A DNA stretch of 22,744 bases from a virus. Of this stretch, positions 214 to 22,414 are shown one piece after another; position 1 is the stretch's first letter, and every line of letters starts with the position of its first letter. A model generated the notes under the pieces. That model was not told the DNA's origin, made no database searches, and saw nothing but the letters and a program-made list of their open reading frames with translations. Made by a program: the position numbers and the translations under genes. Where the stretch lies: positions 1 to 22,744 of IMG/VR virus record IMGVR_UViG_3300022562_000988; one strand, given 5' to 3'.

Positions 214-1605
214 ATGCGCTTTCTAGGGCTAGACATTTCCTTGGCCCGGACGAAGGCTACCGCCCCGCTGCCGGTAGACACTCGTGAGAGCGCCTGGCGC
301 AGCATGGTAGCGGAGCCTTACGCCGGGGCCTGGCAGCGTAACGACGAACTCACGCGCGACGATATCACAGCGCAGTCCGCGGTATACGCCTGCGTGTCGC
401 TCATTGCGCGCGACATCGGGAAACTGCGCTTCAAGCTGACGAAGTTGACCGAGGACGGTATCTGGGTCGAGACGACCAGCCCGGCCTACAGCCCGGTACT
501 GCGGCGGCCAAACCACTACCAGAACCACATCCAGTTCAAGGCCTGGTGGATCACCTGCTTGCTCCTGCGCGGGAACTGCTATGTCCTGAAGGAGCGCGAC
601 CAGCGAGGTGTGGTCATCGGGCTATACATCCTGCACCCGGATCGCGTGACGCCGCTGGTCGCCGGGAACGGCGAGGTCTACTACCGCCTCCAGCGTGACG
701 ACTTGTCGCTCCAGCCGAAGTACGAGACCGTAATCCCGGCGACTGAGATTATTCACGCTCGCGAGAATTGCCTGTATCACCCGCTGGTCGGCACCAGTGC
801 GCTTCTCGCGTGCGGCATCCAGGCCGGGGCCGCCTTGCGCATCCAGCAGGATTCGTCGCTCTTCTTCGAGAACGGAGCTCGCCCGGGCGGCATCCTCACG
901 GCGCCTGGCGCCATCTCGAACGAGACCGCCGCGCGTCTGAAGGCTCGGTGGGAAGCGGCCTACGGCGGAGAGAATTCCGGTAAGATCGCGGTACTCGGGG
1001 ACGGCCTCACCTTCGAGCCGCTTCGCATGACCGCGGTCGACTCCCAGCTGATCGAGCAGCTTCGCTGGTCGGCGGAAGTCGTGTGCTCGGTGTTTCACGT
1101 GCCGAAGTATAAAATCGGCCTGGCGGAACCGGCGTACGGCAACCTGGAGGAGATGAACACCGACTACTATGCGACCTGCCTCCAGGCACCCATTGAGGGA
1201 ATGGAGGTCGGCCTGGACGAGGGTCTGCGTGTCGGGGAGTCCTACGGCGTAGAGCTGGATATCGACGGGTTGATGCGTATGAATCCGAGTGCCTTGGTGA
1301 AGGTCGCCGCGGATGGCGTGAAGGGCTCGGTCATGACCCCGGACGAGAGTCGTCGGCGTCTAAACTTGCCACGCGTTGAAGGCGGCGATACGATCTACAT
1401 GCAGCAGCAGAACTACAGCCTGGCCGCGTTGGCTAAGCGTGATGCGCAGGAAGATCCGTTCGGTTCTGCGACCGCCGCGCCGATTCCGGCAACCACGGTT
1501 GATGACCCCGTCGAAGATGCGGAGTTTACGGACGAGGATGTGGAACAGGCGCTGGCGAACCTTTTTGACACCAGTCTCGGGGCCCTGACGCATGAAACCA
1601 CTTGA
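214..1605 (+). CDS. Phage portal protein, HK97 type
   Basis: This 463-residue protein forms the dodecameric ring at the capsid vertex through which DNA is packaged and ejected, and to which the terminase and connector attach. Length and sequence fit the HK97-type portal family (Phage_portal). Family-like stretches include AVYACVSLIARDIGKL near residue 55, LHPDRVTPL near residue 140, the region around ALRIQQDSSLFFENGARPGG near residue 210, and RWSAEVVCSVFHVPKYKIG near residue 290. The C-terminus is acidic and probably flexible. The ATG at 214 has only a weak upstream purine stretch, so a slightly later start is possible. The next gene begins inside its last codons (14-base overlap), indicating coupled translation. 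No prohead protease or capsid gene follows it, contrary to the usual HK97-like order. Confidence 0.95.
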   Translation: MRFLGLDISLARTKATAPLPVDTRESAWRSMVAEPYAGAWQRNDELTRDDITAQSAVYACVSLIARDIGKLRFKLTKLTEDGIWVETTSPAYSPVLRRPNHYQNHIQFKAWWITCLLLRGNCYVLKERDQRGVVIGLYILHPDRVTPLVAGNGEVYYRLQRDDLSLQPKYETVIPATEIIHARENCLYHPLVGTSALLACGIQAGAALRIQQDSSLFFENGARPGGILTAPGAISNETAARLKARWEAAYGGENSGKIAVLGDGLTFEPLRMTAVDSQLIEQLRWSAEVVCSVFHVPKYKIGLAEPAYGNLEEMNTDYYATCLQAPIEGMEVGLDEGLRVGESYGVELDIDGLMRMNPSALVKVAADGVKGSVMTPDESRRRLNLPRVEGGDTIYMQQQNYSLAALAKRDAQEDPFGSATAAPIPATTVDDPVEDAEFTDEDVEQALANLFDTSLGALTHETT

Positions 1606-3226
1606 AAAGCTCGTTCTGGGCGTTCGGAAGTATCTGGACGAGCAGTTGACCCCGGTTACGCAGCGCGTCGAGGCCCTTGAACGTCGTCCGTCGAAGGGAG
1701 ACAAAGGTGACAAGGGCGATAAGGGCGACTCCGTCACGTTAGCGTCCATAGTCTCCGCCATCGAGCTCGCTTCGATCACCTTGGTCGACAAGAAGCTTAG
1801 CGAGTGGGAAGATCCGTTCCGCTCTCTTCAGGAAGCGGAGAAGCTCCTGGTCGAGATGCGCACGGCGCTCGAAAAGGCGGCGAAAACGACCGAAGAGCAT
1901 ATCGCCTCTCTCGACACCATGGTCAAGGTCGAGGACGCCAAGAAGCTCACCGAGATCATCACAAAGACTCTCGGCGCCCTCGCCAGCGCTCGGGAAGAGT
2001 TCAGCCAGACCGCGATCGAGGTGCGCTCCAACCTGGAGGCGATGCCGGTTACCGTTCGGGGCCTGGTGACCGAGTATATCGGCCAGGTCGCTCTGCCAGC
2101 GGGCGATAAGGGCGACAAGGGTGATAAGGGCGATAAGGGCGATACCCCGGATCTGACCGAGCTGGCGGACGAGCTTCGTGGCCAGGTCGAGAAAGTTATC
2201 ACCGAACGCCTGGACGCGGCACAGGAGAGCCTCAACACCCTCGTCAAGGCTACCGGCGACTCCCTAGCGGAGCTCTCCAGTAGCCTTGACGAGAAGGTCT
2301 CCCAACTCGTGCCTCCGAAAGGCGATAAGGGTGACAAGGGTGACAAGGGCGATAGCTTTGACCCGCAGGTTCTGCTGAAGTGCGTCAGTGAAGTCCACGA
2401 CGAGCTGCGCACCGAGGTCGAGGCGACGCGTGCCCGCGTGGACGTGTTCTTGGAGACGTGCCAGGAACACGTCAAGAACATGGTTCCGGAGCGCGGCGAC
2501 AAAGGCGACAAAGGAGATAAAGGAGACAAAGGAGATGACGGCGCGTCGGTTGACGTCGAGGCGATCACCAACAAGGCGATCGCGGACGTTGAGGCTCGCT
2601 TGAATCTTACCGTCGCCAACCTGGCCAAAAGCCTGGACGATCGGGTCGCCGCCGCTCTTGCTTCGACCGCGGAAGCGGCAGCGGCAGTCCCTTCGGCCGA
2701 GGCCATCGCCGCCATGGTGACTTCCGCGGTCAAGAATACGCCGCCGGCCGCCCCCGGTCGCGATGCGTTGGAGATCCAGATCCTTCCGGGGATCAACGAG
2801 GACCGATCCTACGCGCCTGGGGTCTACGCGCGCCACAAAGGCGGCCTGTGGCTATCGCGTATGCAAACCGCGGGGCTTGACGGGTGGGAGTGCGTAATCA
2901 ATGGAATCGACGCTGTCAATCTTCACCTGGGTGAAGACGGGAGAACCGTAGTCCTTAACACGCGGCTGTCGGATGGCACGGAGACGGACCAAACCGTCCA
3001 GGTTCCGACGGTGATCGATCGCGGCCCGTACAAAGAAGGTCTCAAGTTTACGGCTGGCGACGGCGTGACGCACAGCGGCTCGTACTGGATCGCTCAAAAG
3101 GATACCGAGGCGCGTCCTGGCACCAGCCTCGACTGGCGTCTGGCTGTTCGCAAGGGGCGCGATGCTCCGGTGAAGAACGACGTGCGTCATCTCACGGCAT
3201 CTCGCGTATCCCTGTCCGAGGACTAA
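1592..3226 (+). CDS. Collagen-like/coiled-coil fibre protein with sugar-binding-like C-terminus
   Basis: A 544-residue protein of striking modular build. Four Gly-Asp-Lys triplet runs (residues 35-46, 171-184, 243-254 and 302-316) are collagen-like Gly-X-Y segments. They separate long charged helical stretches with heptad-like spacing, as in a trimeric rod. The C-terminal part (about 393-524) has two related pieces: YAPGVYARHKGGLWLSR and RGPYKEGLKFTAGDGVTHSG, the latter followed by YWIAQKDT and WRLAV. This Tyr/Trp pattern resembles small chitin/cellulose-binding modules (CBM5/12-like), though that assignment is from memory. It overlaps the portal gene and sits just before the connector. I infer a fibre or whisker at the head-tail neck or capsid surface that touches glycans. 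A purely assembly-related role is also possible. Cys265, Cys290 and Cys434 are the only cysteines. Confidence 0.85.
   Translation: MKPLEKLVLGVRKYLDEQLTPVTQRVEALERRPSKGDKGDKGDKGDSVTLASIVSAIELASITLVDKKLSEWEDPFRSLQEAEKLLVEMRTALEKAAKTTEEHIASLDTMVKVEDAKKLTEIITKTLGALASAREEFSQTAIEVRSNLEAMPVTVRGLVTEYIGQVALPAGDKGDKGDKGDKGDTPDLTELADELRGQVEKVITERLDAAQESLNTLVKATGDSLAELSSSLDEKVSQLVPPKGDKGDKGDKGDSFDPQVLLKCVSEVHDELRTEVEATRARVDVFLETCQEHVKNMVPERGDKGDKGDKGDKGDDGASVDVEAITNKAIADVEARLNLTVANLAKSLDDRVAAALASTAEAAAAVPSAEAIAAMVTSAVKNTPPAAPGRDALEIQILPGINEDRSYAPGVYARHKGGLWLSRMQTAGLDGWECVINGIDAVNLHLGEDGRTVVLNTRLSDGTETDQTVQVPTVIDRGPYKEGLKFTAGDGVTHSGSYWIAQKDTEARPGTSLDWRLAVRKGRDAPVKNDVRHLTASRVSLSED
1694..2539 (+). repeat. 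Four in-frame Gly-Asp-Lys (9-base) repeat clusters
   Basis: Tandem 9-base units encoding Gly-Asp-Lys occur at about 1694-1729, 2102-2143, 2318-2353 and 2495-2539 within the fibre gene. Codons vary (ggc/ggt/gga, gat/gac, aag/aaa), so the protein repeat is better conserved than the DNA repeat. This points to selection on the collagen-like peptide rather than very recent slippage. The last cluster uses mostly AAA lysine and GGA glycine codons, unlike the first three. Confidence 0.85.
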
Positions 3227-3229
3227 GGT

Positions 3230-3559
3230 GTGGCACAAGAAGCCCTGCTGGTAACGTTGGACGAAGTCAAACTGGCTCTGACCTATGACGGGATGTTCAA
3301 TGACGGCCAGATCGATTTCTGGATCTCTCAGGCGACCGGGATCATCTACGATTACCTGAAGCTCGGCGAGGCGGAAGAACCTGGTTGGCCGGTCGATTGG
3401 TTCGACTCGTCGCTGACGCCGACCGCGGAATACCCGCGTGCCGTGAAGCAGGCGGCCATCCTGGTCGTGTCTATGCTGGCTGAGAAGCCGATGGAAAATC
3501 CAATCACCGCCGGGGTTGAATCGCTGCTTCGGCGTCAACGTGACCCGGCGATGGAATGA
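3230..3559 (+). CDS. Head-tail connector, gp6-like
   Basis: A 109-residue, mostly helical protein starting at GTG 3230, four bases after the previous stop. It opens with VTLDEVKLALTYDG and NDGQIDFWISQATGIIYDYL and has a second helical part, YPRAVKQAAILVVSMLAEKP. This is the pattern of HK97 gp6-like connectors (Phage_gp6 / Gp15-type adaptors), which form a ring under the portal and create the docking site for the head closure protein. Length is typical for the family. Its stop overlaps the next ATG (ATGA at 3556-3559). Position directly after the portal and fibre genes supports the call. Confidence 0.85.
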   Translation: MAQEALLVTLDEVKLALTYDGMFNDGQIDFWISQATGIIYDYLKLGEAEEPGWPVDWFDSSLTPTAEYPRAVKQAAILVVSMLAEKPMENPITAGVESLLRRQRDPAME

Positions 3560-4182
3560 AAGAGCTAAACGCGGAGACCGTGGTATGCATCGGGGCCGGC
3601 CCGTCGCTGACCCTGGAAGACCTGAATCTGGTGCGTAGGGCGAAGGTCCCGACCATCGCCATCAACAATGTCATGTTCTCCGCTACCTGGGCGACTGTCG
3701 GCTACGCCTGCGATGATGTTTGGTGGCGCGTCTACCACCAGAGTATACAGCGCATGTTCCGCGGTATACTCTGTACCCGGTCCGAGAATACCGCCGCTCG
3801 CTACGGGCTTGAGTACGTCAAGTCGCGTGCTGGAAGCGGCCTCCCCGAAAACGGCGTGATCTACCACGGCCTTGACGGTGGATTCCAAGCGATCCAGCTC
3901 GCGCTGCTTCATGGGGCCCAGCGTGTCGTGCTTCTCGGCTACGACCAGAAGAACGGTTCGGACGGTAAGACCCATTATCACGGTGACCACCAGCTACCGT
4001 TGTTCAACGCCCACCCTCGCCGCTACCTCGAAAGGGAACGCGCATACACCACCCTCGCACGAGTCATGGCCTCTGATCCGCGTAAGATAATCAACTGCAC
4101 CCGCGACACCGCGATGCGCATGTTCCCTCGCGAGAAGCTGGAAGAAGTCCTCGGCCAGAAGAGCAATTCGGAGGCCGCGTGA
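3556..4182 (+). CDS. DUF115/GT42-like sugar-transfer protein
   Basis: A 208-residue protein with a Rossmann-like start, VVCIGAGPSLTLEDLNLVRR (residues about 9-28). GxGPSL is the nucleotide-binding signature seen in the DUF115 (MptE-like) and GT42 sialyltransferase-like families. The middle part, FQAIQLALLHGAQRVVLLGYD, parallels the central helix-strand-Asp of those families and is followed by a His-rich loop, HYHGDHQ, where GT42 enzymes have their catalytic His. A nucleotide-sugar-dependent glycosyltransferase is therefore likely, but the substrate is unknown. It is coupled to the connector gene before it and to the second sugar-related gene after it (GTGA overlap), so both are expressed with neck proteins. 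Possible targets are virion proteins, such as the collagen-like fibre, or host surface glycan. Family comparison is from memory. Confidence 0.7.
   Translation: MKELNAETVVCIGAGPSLTLEDLNLVRRAKVPTIAINNVMFSATWATVGYACDDVWWRVYHQSIQRMFRGILCTRSENTAARYGLEYVKSRAGSGLPENGVIYHGLDGGFQAIQLALLHGAQRVVLLGYDQKNGSDGKTHYHGDHQLPLFNAHPRRYLERERAYTTLARVMASDPRKIINCTRDTAMRMFPREKLEEVLGQKSNSEAA
3739..3773. repeat. Perfect 10-base inverted repeat inside a coding region
   Basis: CAGAGTATAC at 3739-3748 is perfectly complementary to GTATACTCTG at 3764-3773, with a 15-base spacer that can add a CGC/GCG pairing. Each arm contains the palindrome GTATAC. It lies within the GT42-like gene. It could form an mRNA hairpin or be a dyad operator; there is no T tract downstream to make it a standard terminator. 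Confidence 0.75.
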
Positions 4183-4994
4183 GAGTTCGCGTTGGCGTAT
4201 ACCACGGTACGAGCAGCCACCAGCAACAGGGAGCCGAGCTGGTCGCCAGCGGCGTCCGGCGCAATGGGGATGTGGTCATCGATTTCAAGGGTAGCGAGGC
4301 GATCCCGGACGCGGATGTCCTGGTCTTCTGGGGTCATCGCAATACGCGCCTGATCAACCACCAGAAAGAGCTTGGACGTGATTACCTGGTTATGGAGCGT
4401 GCCTACCTCGGCGATCGCTTCAACTGGATGTCGCTAGGTTTCAACGGGTTAAACGGGCGTGCGGACTTCGTAAACGAGGCCGCACCCTCGGACCGCGGCG
4501 ACGAGTGGCGCGGCATGCTGAAGCCGTGGACGGACGATGGCCACAAGATCGTTGTCTGCGGCCAGGTCTACACGGACGCGGCTATCCTCGGCCTCGTGAA
4601 TATGCCGACCTGGATTGCTCACATGAAGAACCAGTGTGAGGCGATCTACGGCTTGCCGGTCGAGATTCGGGCGCATCCGAAGTACGCGGCGGCCCAGCCG
4701 CCTCTTGAGCAGCAGTTGATCGGTGCGAAGGCGTGTATTACCTTTAGCAGCAATAGCGGCGTTCTGGCCGTGATGCAAGGCATCCCGACCGTGACCATGG
4801 ACATCGGGGCGATGGCGTATGAGGTAACCAGCCACGATCCCGGAACCCTAGTTCGTCCGGATCGTACTGGGTGGCTCGACCGTCTGGCGTACTGCCAATG
4901 GAAGCCGCAGGAAATTCAGCAGGGAGATGCGTGGGCGCATCTTCGGAGACGTTATGCGCATCAGCGACTATCAGCCGGGGCTGCTGTTTCATAG
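4179..4994 (+). CDS. Glycosyltransferase-like protein (GT-B/capsule-synthesis type)
   Basis: A 271-residue protein starting at GTG 4179, which overlaps the previous stop. The N-terminal half looks like a nucleotide-fold domain (VRVGVYHGTSSHQQQGAEL, then DADVLVFWGHRN). The C-terminal half carries IGAKACITFSSNSGVLAVM followed by GIPTVTMDIGAMAYEV. That Ser-Ser-x-Ser-Gly plus Gly-x-Pro-x-Val pattern is typical of the donor-binding half of capsule-polysaccharide and CDP-glycerol-type GT-B enzymes. The end, TGWLDRLAYCQWKPQEI, is also phage-family-like. With the preceding gene it makes a two-gene sugar-modification cassette inside the neck operon. Donor and acceptor are unknown. Its 3' end overlaps the next gene by 41 bases, so the cassette is embedded in the operon. 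Confidence 0.7.
   Translation: MRVRVGVYHGTSSHQQQGAELVASGVRRNGDVVIDFKGSEAIPDADVLVFWGHRNTRLINHQKELGRDYLVMERAYLGDRFNWMSLGFNGLNGRADFVNEAAPSDRGDEWRGMLKPWTDDGHKIVVCGQVYTDAAILGLVNMPTWIAHMKNQCEAIYGLPVEIRAHPKYAAAQPPLEQQLIGAKACITFSSNSGVLAVMQGIPTVTMDIGAMAYEVTSHDPGTLVRPDRTGWLDRLAYCQWKPQEIQQGDAWAHLRRRYAHQRLSAGAAVS
4945..4948 (+). promoter_or_regulatory. Shine-Dalgarno that decides the head-closure start
   Basis: GGAG at 4945-4948 lies five bases before ATG 4954. The alternative ATG at 4927 has its AGGGAG directly adjacent (no spacing), which is poor for initiation. The 4954 start also gives the N-terminus expected for a head-closure protein (MRISDYQPGLLFHSVGIYRD). Confidence 0.6.
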
Positions 4995-5307
4995 TGTCGG
5001 AATCTACCGCGACGACGGCACCGCCGACGACGGTGGCGGCGGCTTTGAGCCGTCCTGGGTTCTCGTAGCTACCAAGGCGGCGAACGTGAGCGGCGCGATG
5101 ACCGCTCGCGAAGTTCTTTTTGCCCAGCAGCTGAGGACAGAAATAACGCAGCGTGTCGTGCTGCGTTATTTTCCGGACGTTGACTTTAACAACGGCACGT
5201 TTAAGATCGTGTTCCGTTCGCGCGAGTTCCTGGTCCAGGGCGCCGCCAACGTGGAGGAGCGGAACCGCTGGCTAGTCCTATTCTGCACGGAAGGGGTCAT
5301 CACGTGA
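4954..5307 (+). CDS. Head closure (head-tail joining) protein
   Basis: A 117-residue protein if started at 4954; an in-frame ATG at 4927 would add nine residues. GLLFHSVGIYRDD near the N-terminus, and a C-terminus with FRSREFLVQGAANVEERN followed by RWLVLFCTEG, match the SPP1 gp16 / lambda gpFII-type joining family (Phage_H_T_join). These proteins form a small beta-barrel ring that closes the connector after packaging and receives the tail. The middle, SGAMTAREVLFAQQLRTEIT, fits the family helix-strand pattern. It begins inside the glycosyltransferase gene and its stop overlaps the next GTG (GTGA at 5304-5307). A strong hairpin lies in its coding region at 5141-5171. Confidence 0.75.
   Translation: MRISDYQPGLLFHSVGIYRDDGTADDGGGGFEPSWVLVATKAANVSGAMTAREVLFAQQLRTEITQRVVLRYFPDVDFNNGTFKIVFRSREFLVQGAANVEERNRWLVLFCTEGVIT
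5141..5171. repeat. Perfect 12-base inverted repeat with 7-base loop inside a coding region
   Basis: AAATAACGCAGC at 5141-5152 pairs perfectly with GCTGCGTTATTT at 5160-5171, with loop GTGTCGT. On the + strand the 3' arm ends in TTTT (5169-5172), giving a terminator-like appearance, although only one T lies beyond the stem. It sits in the middle of the head-closure gene. It may attenuate the operon, protect mRNA ends or bind a protein. Confidence 0.8.
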
Positions 5308-5744
5308 GCTCGATCAACGCCAAGGTAGACGCTCGGCGTATGCTGGCGCGCTTCAAGGCGCTTCCAGCTCGCCTGCAGCGGCCGGTGATCGCCGAGGTCG
5401 CGGCGCTGGCGAATATGGCCGAGGTCGAGGTTCGTGCCAAATACTCGAAGCCGGTCGGCCGCCGCGGACAGCGTGTGGTTAAGCGCAGTCGTCCTGGCCA
5501 ACCGGGGCGCATGGACGTGGGCACCATGCGTGCGGGCGTCAGCCAACGCATGAAGACTCCGCTGATTCGCTACGTGACCGTGGATGCCGAGGCGGTCAGC
5601 GACGGCGCGCGGTACCCGTGGATGCTGGAGAGCGGTACTCGAAAGATGAAGAAGCGCCCGGCGATCAAACCGGTGCAGCGAAAGATGTCCCGTCTGGTAA
5701 GTCGCCGCATTACCGCCGCGATCAAGCGAGCATTGAAAGAATGA
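5304..5744 (+). CDS. HK97 gp10-like neck/tail completion protein
   Basis: A 146-residue, strongly basic protein starting at GTG 5304, overlapping the head-closure stop. The order (helix with MLARFKALPARLQRPVIAEV, basic linker KPVGRRGQRVVKRSRPG, then a beta part with YPWMLESGTRKMKKRPAIKP and a basic C-terminal helix) is characteristic of HK97-gp10_like proteins. The phrase E-x-G-T-x-K/R...RP-x-x-x-P is the family hallmark. They act at the head-tail interface. Position between head closure and the DUF3168 protein is the usual order. The stop overlaps the next ATG (ATGA at 5741-5744). Confidence 0.85.
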   Translation: MSSINAKVDARRMLARFKALPARLQRPVIAEVAALANMAEVEVRAKYSKPVGRRGQRVVKRSRPGQPGRMDVGTMRAGVSQRMKTPLIRYVTVDAEAVSDGARYPWMLESGTRKMKKRPAIKPVQRKMSRLVSRRITAAIKRALKE

Positions 5745-6193: not shown

Positions 6194-6622
6194 ATGTCCA
6201 AGTTTGCCGGCAAAGACATGCTGATTTACATCAGCGACGAAGCTTCCCCGGAGACGTTCAACCTGATTGCTGGCCTACGTAGCAAGTCCTTCTCGATCAA
6301 CAACGAACAGATCGACGTCACGGACTCGGACGGCTCGCGCTGGCGGAAATTGTTGGAGGGCGGCGTCAAGTCGTGCTCCTTGTCGGGGGCCGGAATTCTC
6401 CAGGACAACGCGGTTCATCAGGAACTACTGAATCGCATCACCGGCAGTAATGGTCTGTCGACCATCGCCAATTTTCGGATCGTCTTTGCCAAGGCCGGTA
6501 CCAGCCTGACTGGCCCGTTCCAGCTGACGTCCTTTGAAGGTTCCGGCGAATACACCGACTCCCAGCAGTACACGGTGAGCATGGAATCCGCCGACGACGT
6601 CACCCTGGCGTTCGTCCTGTGA
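6194..6622 (+). CDS. Major tail tube protein, TP901-1 type
   Basis: A 142-residue protein whose sequence fits TP901-1-type major tail proteins (Phage_tail_2). The GKDMLIYISDE start, LIAGLRSKSFSINNEQIDVT, DSDGSRWRKLLEGGVKSCSL and SGAGILQDN are characteristic. It polymerises as stacked hexameric rings to make the tail tube around the tape measure. GGAG at 6184-6187 is a good ribosome site six bases upstream of ATG 6194. The C-terminal part, SFEGSGEYTDSQQYTVSMES, is the strand pair shared with tube proteins. A diverged paralogue of the whole domain is encoded at 10004. The stop overlaps the chaperone GTG start. Confidence 0.9.
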   Translation: MSKFAGKDMLIYISDEASPETFNLIAGLRSKSFSINNEQIDVTDSDGSRWRKLLEGGVKSCSLSGAGILQDNAVHQELLNRITGSNGLSTIANFRIVFAKAGTSLTGPFQLTSFEGSGEYTDSQQYTVSMESADDVTLAFVL

Positions 6623-7241: not shown

Positions 7242-9240
7242 TTTGATGGTCCGCGTTGGCGCGGATATCAAAGCCCTCCAGAAGGAGCTACGCCGCGCGC
7301 AGCGAGAAGCCGATATCTCCAGCCGCGGAATCAAGGACGCCGTTGAAAAGAGCGGGGCGAAGTCGGCCCTAGACGAGCTGGACGCCGCAGCTGGTCGCGC
7401 TAAGAAGGGTATGATGGGTATGGGCGCGGCGGTGCTCGGTGGCCTCGGCCTTTTCGAGCTAAGTCGGCACATCATCAGTACGGCTAGCGAATTCGAGCAG
7501 CTTCGCGCCCGCCTGGAGACAGTCACCGGTAGCAGCGCCAACGCCGCAAAGGCCATGGAAATGATCATGGACGTCGCCAAGACGACGCCATATCAGGTTC
7601 AGGACGTTACCGACGCCTTTATCCGCCTCAAGGCTTACGGCCTGGACGCCGGGGCTGATTCCCTTCGCGCCTACGGCAACATTGCGGCCGCGATGGGCAA
7701 AACCCTCGAACAGACCATTGAAGCGGCCGCTGACGCCTCTCGCGGCGAGTTCGAGCGCCTGAAAGAGTTCGGCATCCAGGCCAGTAAGCAGGGGGATCAG
7801 GTCTCCTTCATGTTCCAGGGCGTGCGCACGACGGTGAAGAACACGTCTGGCGATATCACAAAATACCTGAAGAGCATCGGGGAGGTCAACTTCGCCGGGG
7901 CGATGGAACGCCAGAGCAAGACGTTCGGCGGTGCGATATCCAATATGCAGGATACCATTGACAGCCTGGCCAACGCCTTCGGCGGCGAGAGCGGGCTGAC
8001 CAGTATCATCGCTGAGGCGATCCGAGACCTAAGCGGCGCGGCCGGCGATTCGACGGAGGAAGCTGCGGCGTTCGGCGCGGCGTTCGCAGAAGTCATCGCG
8101 ACGATGCTGGACGCGACGGTCACCGGGACCGCCACGATCAAGACGCTGTTTGTATCCCTTGGTGACGGGCTCGGTGGATACGCCGCGGCGATCAAGGCGC
8201 TGTTTACGGACGGTGTCGGGGCCTACAACGCCGTCGTGGCGGACATCGAGTCCCGCCAGAAAGACATGTGGTCAAACCTGGTCGAGAACACCGATGCGGA
8301 CAAGTATCGCCAGAAGCTCCACGAGATCCAGGACAACCTCCTGGCGATCAAAGCCGCGAGCTCGGAGGGCGACGGGGACGTCGGCGGTAACCCGAACGCC
8401 GGCGGTGGCGGTAACGCCGCGGAGAAAGTTAAGAAAGCGGTAGTCGATCCATGGGCCGAGGCCAAGGCCGAAACATGGAAGATGCAGCAGGATATCCTGG
8501 CCTCAACGGCCACGTTCCTGGAACAGCAGAGCACCCTGACGGCCGATGCGCTTCAGGCCGACCTTGCGGCCCGTCAGAGCGCCTTTGCCACGCTCCAGGA
8601 ATTGGTCCTCGGGGAGTCCGGCTGGCGACTCAAGCAGGCGGAAGAAGACTTCGCCGCGCGAATGGAGCAGCTGGACGCGCTCTCGACGGCCGAGCAGGAT
8701 ATGCTGGGCGGGCAGGCGGCTATTCGTGAAGCGGCCGAGCGCGAGCACCGCGAGAAGATCTTAGCGATCCAGAAGCAGGCGCTGCAGAGCGGTTACGACT
8801 TCTTGACGATGATCAAGGATGACGAGACCCGCGCGATCGCCGATGGGTGGCTGTCTGCCCTGCGTACTGGCGCCACCTACAGCAAGAAGCTGTTTGAGGC
8901 GAACAAGATTTTCGCCATTGGCGACGCCACGATCAAGGCCTATCAGGCGGCTCAGAACGCGTTCGCCGCGGCGCCGTGGCCGGCCAACTTCGCCGCGGCC
9001 GCAGCAGCGTTGGCGCAGGGCTTCATGAACGTCAAGGCGATCCAAGCGACCAAGTTCGGTGGTGGTGGCGCGGCCTCATCCGTACCTGGCGCGGCCAATG
9101 GGAATAACACCACCCCGGCGAGCGGCGGGTCCAGCTCGCCGTTGGTCAGCGTAACGCTCAACGGGTCGTCGTTCTCCGACCAGCAGGTCCGCGATCTGGT
9201 CGACAAGATTAATGAGGCTTACGCCGACGGAGCAGGGTAA
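7222..9240 (+). CDS. Tail tape measure protein
   Basis: A 672-residue protein, mainly helical. Residues 10-45 are a charged coiled-coil-like start. Residues 62-80 (KKGMMGMGAAVLGGLGLFEL) form a hydrophobic Gly-rich segment. Residues about 85-275 match the conserved tape-measure N-terminal domain (SEFEQLRARLETVTGSSANA, TPYQVQDVTDAFIRLKAYGL, ASRGEFERLKEFGIQ). A Gly/Asn-rich linker near residue 395 precedes a long coiled coil. The C-terminal region near residues 545-610 is Ala-rich (KIFAIGDATIKAYQAAQNAF). It sets tail length and is thought to help DNA entry. At roughly 1.5 Angstrom per residue the predicted tail is about 100 nm (inference). The gene begins inside the chaperone extension; AAAAAGG at 7206-7212 is the likely ribosome site. 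Confidence 0.93.
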   Translation: MAGQYDDLMVRVGADIKALQKELRRAQREADISSRGIKDAVEKSGAKSALDELDAAAGRAKKGMMGMGAAVLGGLGLFELSRHIISTASEFEQLRARLETVTGSSANAAKAMEMIMDVAKTTPYQVQDVTDAFIRLKAYGLDAGADSLRAYGNIAAAMGKTLEQTIEAAADASRGEFERLKEFGIQASKQGDQVSFMFQGVRTTVKNTSGDITKYLKSIGEVNFAGAMERQSKTFGGAISNMQDTIDSLANAFGGESGLTSIIAEAIRDLSGAAGDSTEEAAAFGAAFAEVIATMLDATVTGTATIKTLFVSLGDGLGGYAAAIKALFTDGVGAYNAVVADIESRQKDMWSNLVENTDADKYRQKLHEIQDNLLAIKAASSEGDGDVGGNPNAGGGGNAAEKVKKAVVDPWAEAKAETWKMQQDILASTATFLEQQSTLTADALQADLAARQSAFATLQELVLGESGWRLKQAEEDFAARMEQLDALSTAEQDMLGGQAAIREAAEREHREKILAIQKQALQSGYDFLTMIKDDETRAIADGWLSALRTGATYSKKLFEANKIFAIGDATIKAYQAAQNAFAAAPWPANFAAAAAALAQGFMNVKAIQATKFGGGGAASSVPGAANGNNTTPASGGSSSPLVSVTLNGSSFSDQQVRDLVDKINEAYADGAG

Positions 9241-10007
9241 TGAGCTTCATCCCGTATTCGCAGCAGTATCTCGTCGCCTGGGATGACATCCTGTATTCTG
9301 GGACGCTTTCGGCCAGCACGGAAGCAGATGACGGCCCGGTCGAGAACGTTGCGGACGGCTTCACCTCTGACTACTGGCAGGCGACCGAAGCGGACGGGTC
9401 CCCGTATATCCAGGTCGACACCGGGACGGCGGCGACGGCGGACTACTTCGCGATCCATGGCCACAACGTGTTCAGCATCGGGGGCTCCGTCACGCTCCAA
9501 GGTAGCGACAACGCGTCTAGCTGGACCACCGTATCTGGCCCGCATGTACCGAGCAGCGACGGGGCCAACCTGTGGACATTCGATGCGGTATCCTATCGGT
9601 ACTATCGCTTGGCGTTCACCGGAACCGCCCCGTTCGTGTCCGTCGCTCAGATCGGTGAGCGGATGGTTCTTCCGCAGGGCGTATTTGTCGGGTACGAACC
9701 GGAACCGTACAACAAGAAGAACGAGATCCAGAACCAGAAGTCCGAGAACGGCCAACTGCTCGGGCGTTCGCTCATTCGGACTGGGATCGAAGGCGAGATC
9801 CGTCAGGCCTACGTCACCCAAAGTTGGGTGCGTAACGTCTGGCAACCGTTCGCCGACTACGCGATGCTGCGCCCGTTCTTCGTGGCCTGGCGGTATATCG
9901 ATTACCCAGAAGAAGTTGCCTACTGCTGGGCCGTGAGCGACCCTGTCGTGAAGCAGGGCGCCAACCTGTATATGGCGGTAAGCCTTAAGTTCTCGGGGCA
10001 GCTGTGA
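9240..10007 (+). CDS. Distal tail-type protein with discoidin (F5/8 C) domain
   Basis: A 255-residue protein whose ATG overlaps the tape measure stop (TAATG). Residues about 25-140 look like an F5/8 type C (discoidin-like) jelly-roll: SDYWQATEADGSPYIQVDTG, YFAIHGHNVFSIGGSVTLQG, then YRYYRLAFTGTAPFVSVAQI. This fold often binds carbohydrate. The C-terminal part (residues 150-255) is an all-beta phage-specific domain ending in NLYMAVSLKFSGQL, probably the ring-forming part docking to the tube. Location directly after the tape measure is that of distal tail proteins, hence the call. The exact family is not certain. Its stop overlaps the next gene start (GTGA). Confidence 0.7.
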   Translation: MSFIPYSQQYLVAWDDILYSGTLSASTEADDGPVENVADGFTSDYWQATEADGSPYIQVDTGTAATADYFAIHGHNVFSIGGSVTLQGSDNASSWTTVSGPHVPSSDGANLWTFDAVSYRYYRLAFTGTAPFVSVAQIGERMVLPQGVFVGYEPEPYNKKNEIQNQKSENGQLLGRSLIRTGIEGEIRQAYVTQSWVRNVWQPFADYAMLRPFFVAWRYIDYPEEVAYCWAVSDPVVKQGANLYMAVSLKFSGQL

Positions 10008-10783
10008 AATATGCCGGCTGGCTCGTCGGGCTGTACCTCCCGGACGGCCCAGACTATCGCCTGATCACGGCGCTGGTCACCAAGGGGTTCGAGGTCAACG
10101 GGGGGACGGTCGACGTCACGGACTCGGATGGCGGCTGGTGGCGTGAGCTTCTGGACGACCCCGTCGCGTTTGAGGTCAAGTTCTCGGCCAGCGGTATCAT
10201 TGAGAATAGCTGGGCAGTCGCCACGCTGGCCAACCTCGCGTACACCGGCACCAAGACCCCGGTGCTCCTCACCTTCGCAGACGACCAGTCAATCGAGATG
10301 GTCGGTATCGTCGAGACGTTTGAGGCGAACGGCGAGTATAACGGAGCCCAGCTGTACGACGTGGTTATCGTTGGTACGCCTGGAGAGGCGATCGAGACTG
10401 AGACGATCATCTTAACCAGCAAACCTTACGGCGTGCTGGTCGTTGAATCGATGGCCACTGACGTCAACGTCAGGACGTTCGACACACGCGGGATACCCAT
10501 CGACAACTTTACGACCGCGGTCAACGTCGTGTCGTTTAACCTACGCGAGCCGCTGCTTACCTACACTATTCCGCCCGAAAATATACAGACGGAAATTGCC
10601 GTGGTCAGCTTTAGCTTACGTGTGGCGTTGCTAGAATATACCGTACCGCCTGAGAATATCCAAACTAGTGTCAACGTAGTCTCGTTCCGACTGCGGACGT
10701 ATCTCATTCAATACACCAACTGGACGCCGGAGAACATTAAGACCGACGTCAACGTTGTTTCGTTTAACCTGGAGACACCCTGA
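10004..10783 (+). CDS. Tail-tube-domain paralogue with C-terminal beta-repeats
   Basis: A 259-residue protein starting at GTG 10004. Residues 1-125 are clearly related to the tube protein at 6194: LITALVTKGFEVNGGTVDVT against LIAGLRSKSFSINNEQIDVT, then DSDGGWWRELL against DSDGSRWRKLL, and FEANGEYNGAQLYDV against FEGSGEYTDSQQYTV. Residues 152-259 are repeats of about 25 residues with consensus T-x-V-N-V-V-S-F-x-L-R...Y-T-x-P-P-E-N-I-Q. Copies start at residues 152 (degenerate), 171, 196, 221 and 247 (truncated). It sits among tail-tip genes, so I infer a tip ring made by a duplicated tube domain, with the repeats as an appendage or decoration. The repeat part is visibly richer in A and T than the tube-like part. 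Confidence 0.8.
   Translation: MKYAGWLVGLYLPDGPDYRLITALVTKGFEVNGGTVDVTDSDGGWWRELLDDPVAFEVKFSASGIIENSWAVATLANLAYTGTKTPVLLTFADDQSIEMVGIVETFEANGEYNGAQLYDVVIVGTPGEAIETETIILTSKPYGVLVVESMATDVNVRTFDTRGIPIDNFTTAVNVVSFNLREPLLTYTIPPENIQTEIAVVSFSLRVALLEYTVPPENIQTSVNVVSFRLRTYLIQYTNWTPENIKTDVNVVSFNLETP
10457..10780 (+). repeat. Coding repeats of about 75 bases (VNVVSF...PPENIQ units)
   Basis: Protein repeats begin at residues 152, 171, 196, 221 and 247 of the tube-paralogue protein. The clearest units are 25, 25 and 26 residues. DNA copies have drifted at synonymous sites (for example gtcaacgtcgtgtcgttt against gtcaacgtagtctcgttc), so the duplication is not very recent. The last copy is cut off by the stop codon. 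Confidence 0.8.
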
Positions 10784-12299: not shown

Positions 12300-14687
12300 G
12301 TGGGGTACACCGAAGCCGCGAAAACCTCCGGTCGCCGGCCGATTACTCTGGTCGAACTGCTACTGGATCGCTGCACCCAGGAGTACGGCGTCTCCCCGTG
12401 CCAGGCCGCGATTGGCGTTACCGGGGAGACGTACTGCTTCAAGACCTTCGGCACCTGCCAGTACAAATCAGCGTACACGGCCGAACCTTACGCATACCGG
12501 TATATAGAGCCGCGTTCTGACGCTCCTCCCAGCCTGCGTGCGATCTCGTCCGTGAAGGCCGTGAACCTGGCCCCGACGAAGATGGAAGTCGCTGGCGGCC
12601 TCGGAGCACGCGCCAGCGTCCAGGTCACCTTCCAAGACCACAAGCACCACGACCGCGACCTGGACCCATACTGGCGTGAACGCTACTCAGGTGCGGCCGG
12701 CACCGACGCCCTGACGCTGGCATCATCCGCTACTGACACCCTTGTGGTCAATGGGTCCGGGGATCATCTGGTCGTCAATCGGCCTACCTCCGCGTTGGCC
12801 GGTATGGTCGTTTCGCCGGACGGTACGGGGCTTCCTGGAACGTACTGGGGTCGCCTGCGCGCGCGTAATCCGCATTACGTCGGACGCGTTTGCCTCATCA
12901 AGACCGGGTACCTTGATCTTGACGAAGCGGATTGGAGCGTGCGCACGTACCTCCTGGAGAGCATGATTGGCCCGGACTCGAACGGGATGGTCGCTATCAA
13001 GGCCAAGGACCCGTTGAAGCTCGCGGACAACGAACGTGCGCAGGCCCCGCGTCCTGGCACCGGGGCGCTCACGCTCGCCATCAACCGCGACGAGACCACC
13101 ATCAGCGTCACCCCGGAGGCGGCGCTGGACGAATTCGACGACTCCGGTTATCTTCGCATCGGCGAAGAGATCATGATTTACACGAAGGTCGGCGTGAACC
13201 TGGAAGTCCTGCGCGGGCAGTTCGGGACGGACGCAGAAGAGCATGACTCGAACGATACCGTTCAGCCGTGCCTGCGCATCGCCGGGCAGACGGTCTCCCA
13301 GATCCTAGAGCTACTATTCGGGACGTACGCCGAAATCCCGGCCGAGTATATGCCCATCGCTCAATGGGAGGCCGAGCAGGACCAGTATCTCCCGAACGTC
13401 TACTCAACGCTTATCGCCGAGCCGACCTCGGTCGCCACGCTTGTCAAAGAGCTTTGTCAGTCTGGTCCATTCTCGGTCTGGTGGGACGAGCGTGAGGCGC
13501 TTATCAAGATTCGCGCCCTACGCCAGCCGCAGTCCTCGGATATCCTGGACGAAGAAGAAGACCTCATCGCGGACTCCGTAACGGTCACGGATAAGCCGGA
13601 CATGCGCGTGTCCCAGCAGTGGGTGTTCCTCAACCAGCGCAACCCGACCGAGCAACTGGAAAAGGCCTCGAACTGGAAGCAGCTGATTGTCAACGCCGAT
13701 CTCGACGCCGAGACGGACAACGCCTTCGGCACCGCGGCCATCAGTAAACTTTATTCTCGCTGGATCAATACGAGGTCGGTCGGCGTCAACCTCGCCGCCA
13801 TTACGGTTCAGCGTTTTGGCGACGTGCCGCGTGAGGTTAAGTTCGCTCTGGACGCCGTCCGTGCGCAAGATTATTGGACCGGCGATATCGCCCGGATCAG
13901 TACTCGCCAGATTCAGACAGACCTCGGCGAGAACGCCGTTATCGCGGTCCAGATTACGCAGGCGAACGAAACGCAGCCAGGGCAGCGCGTAGACTATACC
14001 GCGATGGCGTTCTCCGCGGTTGCGTATACGCCGAGCGACGATATCATCGTGATTAGTGAATCGACCTTCGACGTAGACCTGTATGACCTATACGTCGAGA
14101 GGCGCGGCACGGCGCCCACGGGGTCCACCGACATCACCTTCGTTGTTGAGACTAACGTGACCATCGGGCAGATCGACGGCGAGGGTGCGGTAGAGACGGG
14201 CCTGTGGCCATCAGGTGCTAAGATCCTGCTAGAGAATAACGGCCGCATCCAAGGCTACGGCGGGCACGGCGGAGACGACCGTAAAGAGTTCGGGGCGAAC
14301 GGCCAGGACGGCGGCAACGCCTTGGTCTGCCAGGATAACATCCGGGTCGCCAACTATGGCGAAATCTGGGGTGGCGGTGGCGGTGGCGGCGCCTGCGGCG
14401 TCCAAGGTACGCTAGTTGCGGGCGGCGGTGGCGCGGGCTCCCCGCCTGGACTCGGAGGGCTCGGGGAGAAGAACTTCCACGGCGAGGACGGCACCACGAC
14501 CGAGGGCGGTGACGGCGGCGATCCGGAGAAGCGCCAGACCGACGGCGGCGATCCAGGACAGCCCGGCGAGAAGAATAACCAGAGTAACGTGCGCAACTAC
14601 GAAAACGGAGAGGCTGGTTACTACGTCGTGAACAACGACTTGGTCACCTGGCTCGTTGTCGGTGACGTACGCGGGCGTTCGATTTAA
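12300..14687 (+). CDS. Tail hub/tip protein with Cys4 motif and Gly-rich C-terminus
   Basis: A 795-residue protein starting at GTG 12300, with TGGAGG at 12286-12291. Near the N-terminus, Cys25, Cys34, Cys46 and Cys53 occur in DRCTQEYGVSPCQA and YCFKTFGTCQ. This resembles the four-cysteine segment of lambda gpL-type tip proteins that hold an iron-sulfur cluster. Residues about 75-640 are mixed hub-like domains (VKELCQSGPFSVWWDEREAL, then TDKPDMRVSQQWVFLNQRNP). From about residue 648 the protein is Gly-rich (GYGGHGG, WGGGGGGGAC, GGGGAGSPPGLGGLG), as in gpJ-type and gp38-type adhesin tips. I infer a baseplate hub with gpL-like and receptor-contact parts fused in one chain. Cluster binding and receptor are untested. 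Confidence 0.75.
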   Translation: MGYTEAAKTSGRRPITLVELLLDRCTQEYGVSPCQAAIGVTGETYCFKTFGTCQYKSAYTAEPYAYRYIEPRSDAPPSLRAISSVKAVNLAPTKMEVAGGLGARASVQVTFQDHKHHDRDLDPYWRERYSGAAGTDALTLASSATDTLVVNGSGDHLVVNRPTSALAGMVVSPDGTGLPGTYWGRLRARNPHYVGRVCLIKTGYLDLDEADWSVRTYLLESMIGPDSNGMVAIKAKDPLKLADNERAQAPRPGTGALTLAINRDETTISVTPEAALDEFDDSGYLRIGEEIMIYTKVGVNLEVLRGQFGTDAEEHDSNDTVQPCLRIAGQTVSQILELLFGTYAEIPAEYMPIAQWEAEQDQYLPNVYSTLIAEPTSVATLVKELCQSGPFSVWWDEREALIKIRALRQPQSSDILDEEEDLIADSVTVTDKPDMRVSQQWVFLNQRNPTEQLEKASNWKQLIVNADLDAETDNAFGTAAISKLYSRWINTRSVGVNLAAITVQRFGDVPREVKFALDAVRAQDYWTGDIARISTRQIQTDLGENAVIAVQITQANETQPGQRVDYTAMAFSAVAYTPSDDIIVISESTFDVDLYDLYVERRGTAPTGSTDITFVVETNVTIGQIDGEGAVETGLWPSGAKILLENNGRIQGYGGHGGDDRKEFGANGQDGGNALVCQDNIRVANYGEIWGGGGGGGACGVQGTLVAGGGGAGSPPGLGGLGEKNFHGEDGTTTEGGDGGDPEKRQTDGGDPGQPGEKNNQSNVRNYENGEAGYYVVNNDLVTWLVVGDVRGRSI

Positions 14688-20302: not shown

Positions 20303-21784
20303 ATGTCTCTCGATCCAAATCTGCAGAACGCCCTGGAAGCGACGCTGACGCAGGCCGAATCCGCCACCACCCAGACCGAAAACGCCGACACGGCCGCCGG
20401 CAACGCCGTTACCGCCGCGGAGGCCGCAGCAAAGGCCTATCCCGCAGACACGCGAGTGATCAACTCGCGCGATCGTATCGTCACCGCGGATACGCGCATC
20501 GGTTCGGCGCTCACGTCGATCACCGGCGTGCGGAATAAGCTCCGCGATATCCTGGACCTCTACGGGAACGATCCCGTTGACCCAGTCGATCCCGTCGACC
20601 CGGTCGATCCCGTTGACCCAGTCGACCCCGTTGACCCGACTGGCCGCATCACGATTAAGGGCAACAAGCTCTATGATGCGGACGGTACCCACCTCACGGT
20701 GTTCGGGGATAACTGGCACGGCTGGGACGGCTGGTGGGGGTCGAACGGGCAACCGTCGTACAACGGCGAAGGCCTCGGCTCGAAGTATACGGTCGTGTCC
20801 CTCGCGACCCGCCTGGTCAAGGAGCGTGGGTATAACACCATCCGCGTCCCTCTCTGCATGAAGGCGCTGTACGATAATCCGCTCTGCAACGCGGACGATA
20901 TGATCAGCGACGCCAACATGAAGTACCGCGGCCTTCGCTACGTCAACGCCGTCGGTCTCTTCCTGGCCGACCTCGCGTCGGTCGGGCTGCGCGTCTTGCC
21001 GGAACTGCATACGACGACCAGTGCGATGAACGCCGGCTCGCCGAAAGACTACGGCTTCGACTCCGCGTACCACCAGCGATGCGCGACGGTGGTTTGCGAT
21101 ATGCTCGACAAAAGCAAGCTCTTCTCGGTCGTCGTCGGCGTCGGCTTTTTCAATGAACCCTATGGCACCGCCGTGCACGGGGCGCCCGGGAAGCAGGACG
21201 CTAACCAGTGGGATATGGCCGCCGAAGGATACAAGGTCGGCAAGATCATCATCGATCGCGGCTACCTGTTCGCCATGGACGGTTGCAGCGATATGTGGCC
21301 ACGCGACGAGCAGGGTAAGTCAGACCCGAACAGCCCGAACGGGAATCAGGGCTGGGGCGAAAACTGCTATGGTATCGCCCGTTACTGGATGGGCCTCCCG
21401 TCTGGCGAAACCCTGCCGACCGACAAGGTCATCGTCATGCCGCACTTCTACTTTGAATCCAACCTTGGCGTGACCGCAACCTCCATCGATCACTGGCGCG
21501 CGTGCATGGGGTCCAAGACGCCGCTTGGTATCCTGATGGCCCGCGTGCCCTGCATCGTCGGGGAATGGTCCAGCAGCCCGAGCGGTGGAGACGCGCCCGA
21601 TTCCGTCGACAAGTTCATCAGCTTCGTGACGGACCCGGCCGCTCCGTTCGCTGGGGTACTACGCTGGGGCGTCAGCCCGAATCAGGGCGACCAGAACCAT
21701 CGGCTGTTCGACCTGGATTGGAGTACGCTCAACCCGATCGCGGTCGAGTCTTCCGATAAGATGCGCGCCGCCCTCGGCGTCTAA
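20303..21784 (+). CDS. Virion-associated glycoside hydrolase, GH5-like depolymerase
   Basis: A 493-residue protein. Residues 1-88 are a helical, Ala/Thr-rich coiled-coil-like stalk; residues 90-113 are a (Asp-Pro-Val)7-Asp-Pro-Thr linker. From residue 115 the sequence follows the GH5 (clan GH-A) pattern: IKGNKLYDADGTHLTVFGDN with WHGWDGWWG, GYNTIRVPL (Arg181), FFNEPYG (Glu285, the expected acid/base in Asn-Glu-Pro), MPHFYF (His381, Tyr383) and CIVGEWSS (Glu421, the expected nucleophile). Family members hydrolyse beta-linked glucans or related polysaccharides. There is no signal peptide, and the gene sits at the end of the fibre cluster, so I infer a tail-borne enzyme that clears host exopolysaccharide. 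GAGG at 20291-20294 precedes ATG 20303. Substrate is unknown. Confidence 0.82.
   Translation: MSLDPNLQNALEATLTQAESATTQTENADTAAGNAVTAAEAAAKAYPADTRVINSRDRIVTADTRIGSALTSITGVRNKLRDILDLYGNDPVDPVDPVDPVDPVDPVDPVDPTGRITIKGNKLYDADGTHLTVFGDNWHGWDGWWGSNGQPSYNGEGLGSKYTVVSLATRLVKERGYNTIRVPLCMKALYDNPLCNADDMISDANMKYRGLRYVNAVGLFLADLASVGLRVLPELHTTTSAMNAGSPKDYGFDSAYHQRCATVVCDMLDKSKLFSVVVGVGFFNEPYGTAVHGAPGKQDANQWDMAAEGYKVGKIIIDRGYLFAMDGCSDMWPRDEQGKSDPNSPNGNQGWGENCYGIARYWMGLPSGETLPTDKVIVMPHFYFESNLGVTATSIDHWRACMGSKTPLGILMARVPCIVGEWSSSPSGGDAPDSVDKFISFVTDPAAPFAGVLRWGVSPNQGDQNHRLFDLDWSTLNPIAVESSDKMRAALGV
20570..20641 (+). repeat. Tandem 9-base repeats encoding Asp-Pro-Val
   Basis: Seven units encoding Asp-Pro-Val (20570-20632) are followed by one Asp-Pro-Thr unit (20633-20641). 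Codons alternate between GATCCCGT(T/C) and GACCC(A/G)GTC, which suggests duplication of an 18-base pair of units. They form an extended, rigid hinge between stalk and enzyme. Confidence 0.9.
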
Positions 21785-21829: not shown

Positions 21830-22414
21830 ATGCGCACGTTATCTGGGCGTCCGGCGAGCCAGCGAGAATTCGAGCTTAGCGCCTACACCAACCTGATGAA
21901 GTACCACGGCGTGACCTCCTACTGCGAGGTCGGCGCGCGTCACGGCGATACTTTCTACCACGTCATGAAGACTCTCCCGAAAGGTTCGCGCGGCCTGGCG
22001 ATCGACCTTCCGGGCGCCCTCTGGGGAACGAAAAGCGGCGGCCATCTTCGCCGGGCGGTGGAGCGGTTGCGCCAGGAAGGGTACCGCGTAGAGATGTGCC
22101 TGGCGTCGTCGCAGAGCAAAGACGCCCTGGCCGCCGCGGCGCACGGTTGGGACTCGATCCTGGTCGACGCTGACCACACGTACTCGGCCGCTCGCGCTGA
22201 TTTCCTGGCCTACTTGCCTCTGGCGTTCAAGATGATCGCGCTCCACGATATCGACGGCGAAGGGATGAAGGAGAAAGTCCACGGGACCGCGGTCGAAGTC
22301 CCGCGCCTCTGGAAAGAGATATCCCCGCAGGCCGGACAGCAGAAGCTGGAATTGATCGACTACGATAACCGCGGTATGGGCATCGGAGTCCTGACCCTCG
22401 GGGGCGGAACGTGA
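21830..22414 (+). CDS. SAM-dependent methyltransferase-like protein
   Basis: A 194-residue protein with class I methyltransferase features. SYCEVGARHGDTFYHVM (residues 30-46) is like motif I (Glu-x-Gly-x-x-x-Gly). GLAIDLP (residues 55-61) ends in the expected acidic residue after strand 2. WDSILVDADHTYSAARADF (residues 107-125) with LHDI at 138-141 resembles the Methyltransf_24 / cephalosporin-hydroxylase-like group, where the family has Asp-x-x-His. The acceptor is unknown; relatives act on sugars or small molecules, which would match the sugar theme of the window, but DNA or protein modification cannot be excluded. It has its own ribosome site and follows a hairpin. Its stop overlaps the next gene start. 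Confidence 0.65.
   Translation: MRTLSGRPASQREFELSAYTNLMKYHGVTSYCEVGARHGDTFYHVMKTLPKGSRGLAIDLPGALWGTKSGGHLRRAVERLRQEGYRVEMCLASSQSKDALAAAAHGWDSILVDADHTYSAARADFLAYLPLAFKMIALHDIDGEGMKEKVHGTAVEVPRLWKEISPQAGQQKLELIDYDNRGMGIGVLTLGGGT

Follow-up and report, generated by a model that had tools for sequence, protein, structure and literature searches.

Between the connector and head-closure genes of a virus genome lie two overlapping genes, here called A and B, that are predicted to encode transferases of CMP-activated ulosonic acids. The window analyzed here is a stretch of 22,744 nucleotides, positions 1 to 22,744 of IMG/VR record IMGVR_UViG_3300022562_000988. Together with a methyltransferase encoded elsewhere in the window, A and B are read here, with a slight leaning in favor, as a CMP-ulosonate based cassette for the glycosylation of virion proteins, for which we infer both the acceptor and the sugar.

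Gene Order and Translational Coupling in the Head-Neck Operon

The genes from the portal to the gp10-like protein, and the methyltransferase gene at 21830-22414, lie on the plus strand. The portal gene (214-1605; Phage_portal, E = 2.7e-81) supplies the genomic context and is followed by a post-portal protein with collagen-like GDK repeats (1592-3226) and an Ad1-type head-tail connector (3230-3559; phrog_40 'head-tail adaptor Ad1', E = 5e-5). Then come gene A (3556-4182, 208 aa), gene B (4179-4994, 271 aa), the head-closure protein Hc1 (4954-5307; Phage_HCP, E = 2.5e-14; phrog_25, E = 4e-13), and, as the next gene of the operon, an HK97 gp10-like neck/tail completion protein (5304-5744; phrog_5, E = 8.6e-6). 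Tail terminator, tail tube, and tape measure genes also surround the cassette. Translational coupling is read directly off the sequence: the ATG of A (3556-3558) overlaps the TGA stop of the connector gene (3557-3559) as ATGA, and B starts at a GTG that overlaps the TGA of A (GTGA) and is preceded by a Shine-Dalgarno-like GGAGG stretch. Hc1 in turn begins inside B, at ATG 4954 (or 4927).

The first-pass annotation of this DNA had described a two-gene cassette at 3556-4994, inserted between connector and head closure with overlapping starts and stops. The range proved exact, both reading frames are as it gave them, and the flanking assignments are borne out by the phrog_40 match upstream and the Phage_HCP and phrog_25 matches downstream. 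A and B are genuine conserved genes and not chance open reading frames, given the family match for A and the homologues of B described below. Position within a late structural operon is consistent with enzymes that act on virion proteins.

Immediately after the tape measure gene, a protein with an F5/8 type C (galactose-binding-like) domain is encoded at 9240-10007, followed at 10004-10783 by a second protein in which short repeats (VVSF.LR) follow a tail-tube-like N-terminal domain; this protein and the tail tube (6194-6622) have a DVTDSDG motif in common. A large tail protein (12300-14687) has a C-terminus that matches the Gp38 tail-fiber adhesin (PF05268, E = 3.4e-15) and is apparently fused to a tail tip protein. 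The tail-region protein at 20303-21784 combines a (VDP)n linker with a GH5 cellulase-like domain (PF00150, E = 2e-5) and is a possible polysaccharide depolymerase.

Gene A Resembles GT42 and Maf Enzymes

Gene A matches the PHROGs family phrog_4603 'alpha-2,3-sialyltransferase' (E = 1.5e-38), which takes in P1 pmgO, D3 orf7, PAJU2 gp10, and CcrColossus gp126. Comparison with the PDB required profiles, since sequence searches with the single A or B protein gave noise only; single-protein back-translation searches with A or B gave no match. A 70-member profile of A (A6) finds the Campylobacter sialyltransferase CstII (GT42) at E = 2e-4, far ahead of an MptE structure at E = 1.4. The Pfam family MptE-like/DUF115 (PF01973) is matched by 54 of the 70 relatives at E < 0.01; the A of the window scores 15.2 bits, below the gathering score of 34.6. 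The earlier description of A as DUF115/GT42-like is thus upheld by family and profile. The structure comparison that had been proposed as a check gave a more divided answer: the AlphaFold (AF2) model of A (pLDDT 94.7) has a sialyltransferase as its best Foldseek match, the GT29 enzyme ST6GalNAc2 with CMP, but the match is weak (E = 1.5e-3, TM 0.43) and CstII is not among the 50 matches listed.

Across the 70 relatives, G15-P16-S17, D53, G128, and D130 are invariant, and N37, W56, W57, G109, H140, and H145 nearly so. The first-pass annotation had made its reading depend on nucleotide-sugar binding residues, and the donor-site residues are indeed conserved in both A and B. The A of the window carries D107-G108 where its relatives have N107-S108. 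This A forms a long branch to which the tree gives no firm placement. In the alignment, the His cluster of A presumably matches the part of CstII that holds the catalytic His, a correspondence that we treat as a lead only. On these profile and residue patterns, A is predicted to be a CMP-ulosonate transferase of the GT42/Maf-like kind. Two homologues, PAJU2 ORF010 (L161:2492-3061) and Eowyn gp005 (L162:2504-3076), are called 'structural protein' by their depositors on an unstated basis; if these names go back to an analysis of virions, A would itself be a component of the particle.

Gene B Resembles the Beta-Kdo Transferase KpsC

Gene B alone has no match in Pfam or PHROGs. Its homologues, at identities of 42% or less, occur in Caulobacter jumbo phages (as paired genes), in the Pelagibacter phage Mosig, and in IMG/VR contigs; none was found in the plasmid collection. 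The AF2 model of B (pLDDT 93.7) has the modified GT-B fold of the KpsC/WbbB type, and all of its Foldseek matches in the PDB from rank 1 to rank 27 are KpsC, KrkA, or WbbB (E from 1.3e-8 to 1.6e-4), so that the structure comparison bears out the earlier view of B as a capsule-type, GT-B-like protein. The profiles point the same way: one of 46 members (A7) finds KpsC at E = 6.6e-6 and WbbB at 0.004, and a further profile (A8) aligns with KpsC at E = 0.0056, while pairwise sequence searching finds no match of B to GT107.

In KpsC, a QXXXD motif holds the nucleophile, with Glu66 as general base and Arg45 as a further active-site residue (PMC10148158), and HP is a CMP-binding motif (PMC12887879). 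The QXXXD of B reads Q129-V-Y-T-D133 and aligns with the QTFND of KpsC; in the profile alignment Asp160, Glu66, Arg45, and the HP motif of KpsC correspond to D133, E73, R54, and H166-P167 of B. All of these residues, and Q129, are invariant in the 13-member subclade to which the B of the window belongs. More distant copies, including those of the Caulobacter phages, are without the Asp, so the transferase assignment is limited to this subclade. Within it, B is predicted from model and alignment to be a CMP-ulosonate transferase of the retaining beta-Kdo type, and it would seem to represent a new family in the clan of beta-Kdo transferases (GT99/GT107/GT140).

A Methyltransferase as the Probable Third Member

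A methyltransferase gene (21830-22414; Methyltransf_24, E = 1.1e-7) lies 17 kb from A and B in the window, after the gene of the GH5-like tail protein. Among the loci compared, its close relatives occur only in contigs L100, L101, L105, and L106 (phmmer E from 6e-39 to 2e-46), where these orthologues are flanked by A and B in an overlapping arrangement; the gene order in L100 and L106 is Ad1-A-methyltransferase-B-Hc1. Because of this position in the related contigs, the cassette probably comprises A, the methyltransferase, and B, and the methyltransferase of the window would be a displaced member of it, a link based on four contigs.

Glycosylation Genes Recur Between Capsid and Neck Genes

The capsid-to-neck interval is a recurrent site of glycosylation genes and not an oddity of this phage. 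A scan of IMG/VR gave 532 relatives of A, of which the best 80 were kept and A was scored in 73. At nearly all of these 73 loci, A lies between terminase, portal, capsid, or connector genes and neck or tail genes, a share that may be overestimated, as the search patterns (A3) are motif-based and favor A of the D3/Psp6 type. Neighbors include GT8 genes at 35 of the 73 loci, a TV45/Ccr-type methyltransferase at 25, GT2 genes at 20, and B at 14. The same head-neck picture is found at 37 loci from bacterial genomes, in prophages; the hosts are Pseudomonadota in 35 cases and metagenome-assembled genomes of Spirochaetales and Lentisphaerae in the other two, and none is Gram-positive. As a general claim, the first-pass statement that sugar enzymes are not part of the usual neck gene set does not survive this survey.

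Among named phages, D3, PAJU2, and Psp6 carry A with a transferase-like gene of about 275 aa and a methyltransferase among their capsid and neck genes; in Tetraselmis virus S20, the interval from capsid to Hc1 contains several glycosyltransferase and methyltransferase genes. The adjacency of A and B recurs beside tail genes in Caulobacter jumbo phages, and between Ad1 or portal and Hc1 in contigs L100, L104, and L106. A is found away from neck genes in P1, Eowyn, and Citrobacter phage phiNP, and the Caulobacter phages are also listed as exceptions. In P1 (L002:5941-8499), the products of pmgO, pmgP, and pmgQ look like glycosyltransferases (GT42-like, distantly GT42-like, and GT8-like, respectively), with a phosphatase gene among them, and the three may form a glycan pathway.

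Apparent -1 Frameshifting in Related Loci

The A of the window has its own ATG, and the architecture described in this section is absent there. At 64 distinct capsid-adjacent loci, no ATG, GTG, or TTG occurs in the 60 codons before the conserved GPS motif of A, and at 41 loci of the first set the whole open frame of A before GPS is free of start codons. At all 64, a small upstream open reading frame, which directly follows the capsid gene and is related to phrog_2616/7993, overlaps A in the -1 configuration. The motifs scored as slippery were X_XXY_YYZ (Y = A or T) and C_CCY. Such a motif is found in phase at 60 of the 64 loci (11 and 9 for the two remaining phases), a count that is partly post hoc because the C_CCY class was added after the prophage set had been inspected; heptamers alone are in phase at 35 of the 64, against 5 and 2. 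At 70 loci where A has a start codon, the counts by phase are 15, 4, and 11.

In E. coli, C_CC.U and C_CC.C are prone to shift and C_CCA and C_CCG barely so (PMC4066793). In the subgroup ending in P-x-x-G-R-W, the A-frame proline codon is CCC in 20 of 20 cases, against 164 of 735 (22%) elsewhere in A, and the following base is always a pyrimidine, though the next residue is of eight kinds. RNA structure 3' of the slip site is moderately enriched. The frameshift class is clustered on the tree of A, yet scattered over several branches. A canonical heptamer at every site was considered and dropped, the prophage set having the C_CCY tetramer instead, and starts at CTG, ATT, ATC, or ATA were rejected as an explanation for the capsid-adjacent loci, some of which have none of these (e.g., L035). 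Taken together, the sequence patterns indicate that a programmed -1 frameshift probably produces a fusion of the small post-capsid protein with A in many relatives. No paper describing this architecture was found in the literature searched, and it looks new.

Startless copies of A are found, for example, at L009:6708-7561, L010:5754-6922, L123:3924-4738, and L082:5438-6180. In D3 (L001:5691-6409), Psp6 (L009), and S20 (L010), public annotation starts A after the conserved GPSL motif, and in D3 the only start codon upstream of that motif is a GTG; A appears to be annotated too late in these phages because there is probably no start codon at the proper place. Weak homologues of the small reading frame stand alone just before the portal gene at L132:3215-3451, L153:3904-4197, and L071:572-787, where A has its own start, so the small protein appears to have a function independent of A.

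The Collagen-Like Protein Marks One Architecture

The collagen-like fiber next to the cassette had been put forward as its target, with a survey for co-occurrence of pair and fiber as a check. Of the 59 loci with a start codon for A, 24 have a homologue of the fiber; the 64 capsid-adjacent loci all carry A and have none. The fiber as universal acceptor is rejected by these counts, and given the same distribution it marks one genome architecture and is not a required acceptor. The C-terminal domain of the collagen-like protein is also found in PAJU2 gp07, which is likewise post-portal, and at the C-terminus of phrog_2271 portals. The 'portal' match to phrog_2271 suggests that in some phages the fiber is fused to the portal, as a portal-anchored neck fiber.

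Proposed Function and Rival Explanations

Gram-negative hosts make CMP-Kdo for their LPS. E. coli K-12 supports the growth of P1, which has a homologue of A; this host makes CMP-Kdo and is not known to make sialic acid. On these grounds, and because the hosts that were found are Gram-negative, the simplest donor to propose is CMP-Kdo. Maf is the nearest relative in kind that modifies protein; in E. coli it attaches Kdo and Neu5Ac to flagellin at Ser/Thr (PMC11339370), which is why O-glycosylation of virion proteins, the role with the best support, is proposed here. In such a scheme, the late head-neck operon would express a small cytoplasmic glycan-building cassette, presumably at a low level. 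A and B would be expected to use CMP-activated ulosonic acids, with CMP-Kdo the likeliest donor. Acting on a freshly synthesized virion protein much as Maf acts on flagellin, A would prime a Ser/Thr, B would add beta-Kdo through a covalent intermediate at Asp133, and the methyltransferase would cap the sugar before assembly. The acceptor would be a virion protein such as the capsid, connector, or tail tube rather than the collagen-like fiber only. P1 pmgO is dispensable for lytic growth in the laboratory (PMC10695390); the modification is therefore not essential, as fits a decoration.

The strongest rival to this scheme is that, in lysogens or at a late stage of infection, the cassette alters glycans of the host envelope, such as the Kdo region of LPS or its outer core, so as to block superinfection or keep progeny off debris. 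Kdo is after all an LPS sugar, the KpsC/WbbB relatives of B act on capsule and O-antigen, many of the loci bearing such islands are prophages, and a host-surface role has been proposed for glycosyltransferase and kinase genes in late operons of gut phages (PMC8008677). We nevertheless think it unlikely, if far from negligible: the genes belong to the late structural operon, coupled to connector genes and not in a separate conversion locus, the capsid-neck site recurs across many lineages, and no membrane segment, flippase, or polyprenyl-phosphate enzyme is seen among the genes nearby. An assembly factor or minor virion component, in which the fold of A serves a chaperone-like or structural use and not catalysis, is a less probable reading still. 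It would account for the name 'structural protein' given to PAJU2 ORF010 and Eowyn gp005, for that of P1 pmgO ('putative morphogenetic function'), and for the apparent fusion of A to the small post-capsid protein in many relatives, yet the residues of active-site type are nearly invariant in 70 relatives, A keeps company with other glycosyltransferases and methyltransferases, and P1 pmgO is non-essential (PMC10695390).

A further reading comes from the Pfam MptE-like matches in 54 of 70 relatives: A would act on small molecules, as a pyrophosphokinase of the MptE-like kind or otherwise, and a soluble metabolite or nucleotide would be the product or substrate of the pair, e.g., in counter-defence. 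The clear Kdo-transferase fold of the partner model B, the frequent GT8 and GT2 neighbors, and the order of matches to profile A6 (sialyltransferases at E = 2e-4, MptE at 1.4) make this very improbable. Glycosylation of phage DNA is the least credible of these readings and is scarcely to be expected: DNA-modifying phage glycosyltransferases exist (reference 46 of PMC12619734), but the families of A and B are not those of DNA glycosyltransferases, every lineage with context shows linkage to structural genes, and no modified-base biosynthesis gene was seen in the window, which covers the structural half of the genome only.

Glycosylation of virion proteins by A, B, and the methyltransferase, if correct, turns genes annotated as 'morphogenetic' or 'hypothetical', namely P1 pmgO, D3 orf7, and PAJU2 gp10, into concrete enzymatic predictions, and places Kdo, a sugar known from LPS, on phage particles, where it would be relevant to the charge of the particle as well as to its adsorption and immune recognition. 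The cassette would also supply small cytosolic enzymes for Kdo transfer, and the frameshift architecture explains why annotators cut the first motif of A in D3, Psp6, and S20. A wider and distinctly tentative proposal is that Kdo glycosylation of virion proteins might be widespread, though so far unrecognized, in phages of Gram-negative bacteria and encoded among head-neck genes by a GT42/Maf-like primer, a new beta-Kdo transferase family, and a methyltransferase; in many of them the primer would be made solely by -1 frameshifting, as an extension at the C-terminus of the small post-capsid protein, which would link the enzyme to the head during its assembly in a low and constant ratio.

Comparison with Known Systems

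The A family has the GPSL loop, the following Asn, the (N/T)SG motif, the G-x-D strand, and the His cluster in common with CstII (GT42) and Maf/DUF115 proteins, whereas A has no lid insertion separating the G-x-D strand from the His cluster and falls below the Pfam cut-off. B likewise has the modified GT-B fold, QXXXD, HP, and the KpsC-type Glu and Arg in common with GT107 (KpsC), GT99 (WbbB), and GT140 (KrkA); it differs from them as a single module of 271 aa, borne by a phage without capsule genes and with undetectable pairwise similarity. Freeman et al. are said to have described, in 2023, the glycosylation of mycobacteriophage virions (as cited in PMC12619734 and PMC13313380), with glycans on capsid and tail tube (as cited in PMC12619734). 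There, as predicted for the window, phage-encoded transferases are thought to act on virion proteins; that system belongs to actinobacteriophages, whereas the glycan of the window is a prediction.

In Caulobacter jumbo phages (CcrColossus, CcrSC), a cluster of the gp126-131 type has two paralogues of B straight after A, then GT8, a methyltransferase, and a GT9-like gene, beside tail genes; their copies of B have QR.. or QS.. in place of QXXXD, and catalysis may differ from that of the B of the window. The pmgO-pmgP-ppp-pmgQ genes of P1 and the modules of the Detrevirus phages D3, PAJU2, and Psp6 (PHROG 4603) have a homologue of A, as does the window. D3, PAJU2, and Psp6 also resemble the window in having A among capsid and neck genes with a transferase-like protein of about 275 aa and a methyltransferase. 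The second gene of P1, D3, PAJU2, and Psp6 is GT9-like or GT8-like, whereas that of the window is B; the A of Psp6 is without a start codon, whereas that of the window has an ATG; and P1 pmgO lies outside the neck operon and is dispensable (PMC10695390), whereas the A of the window lies inside it.
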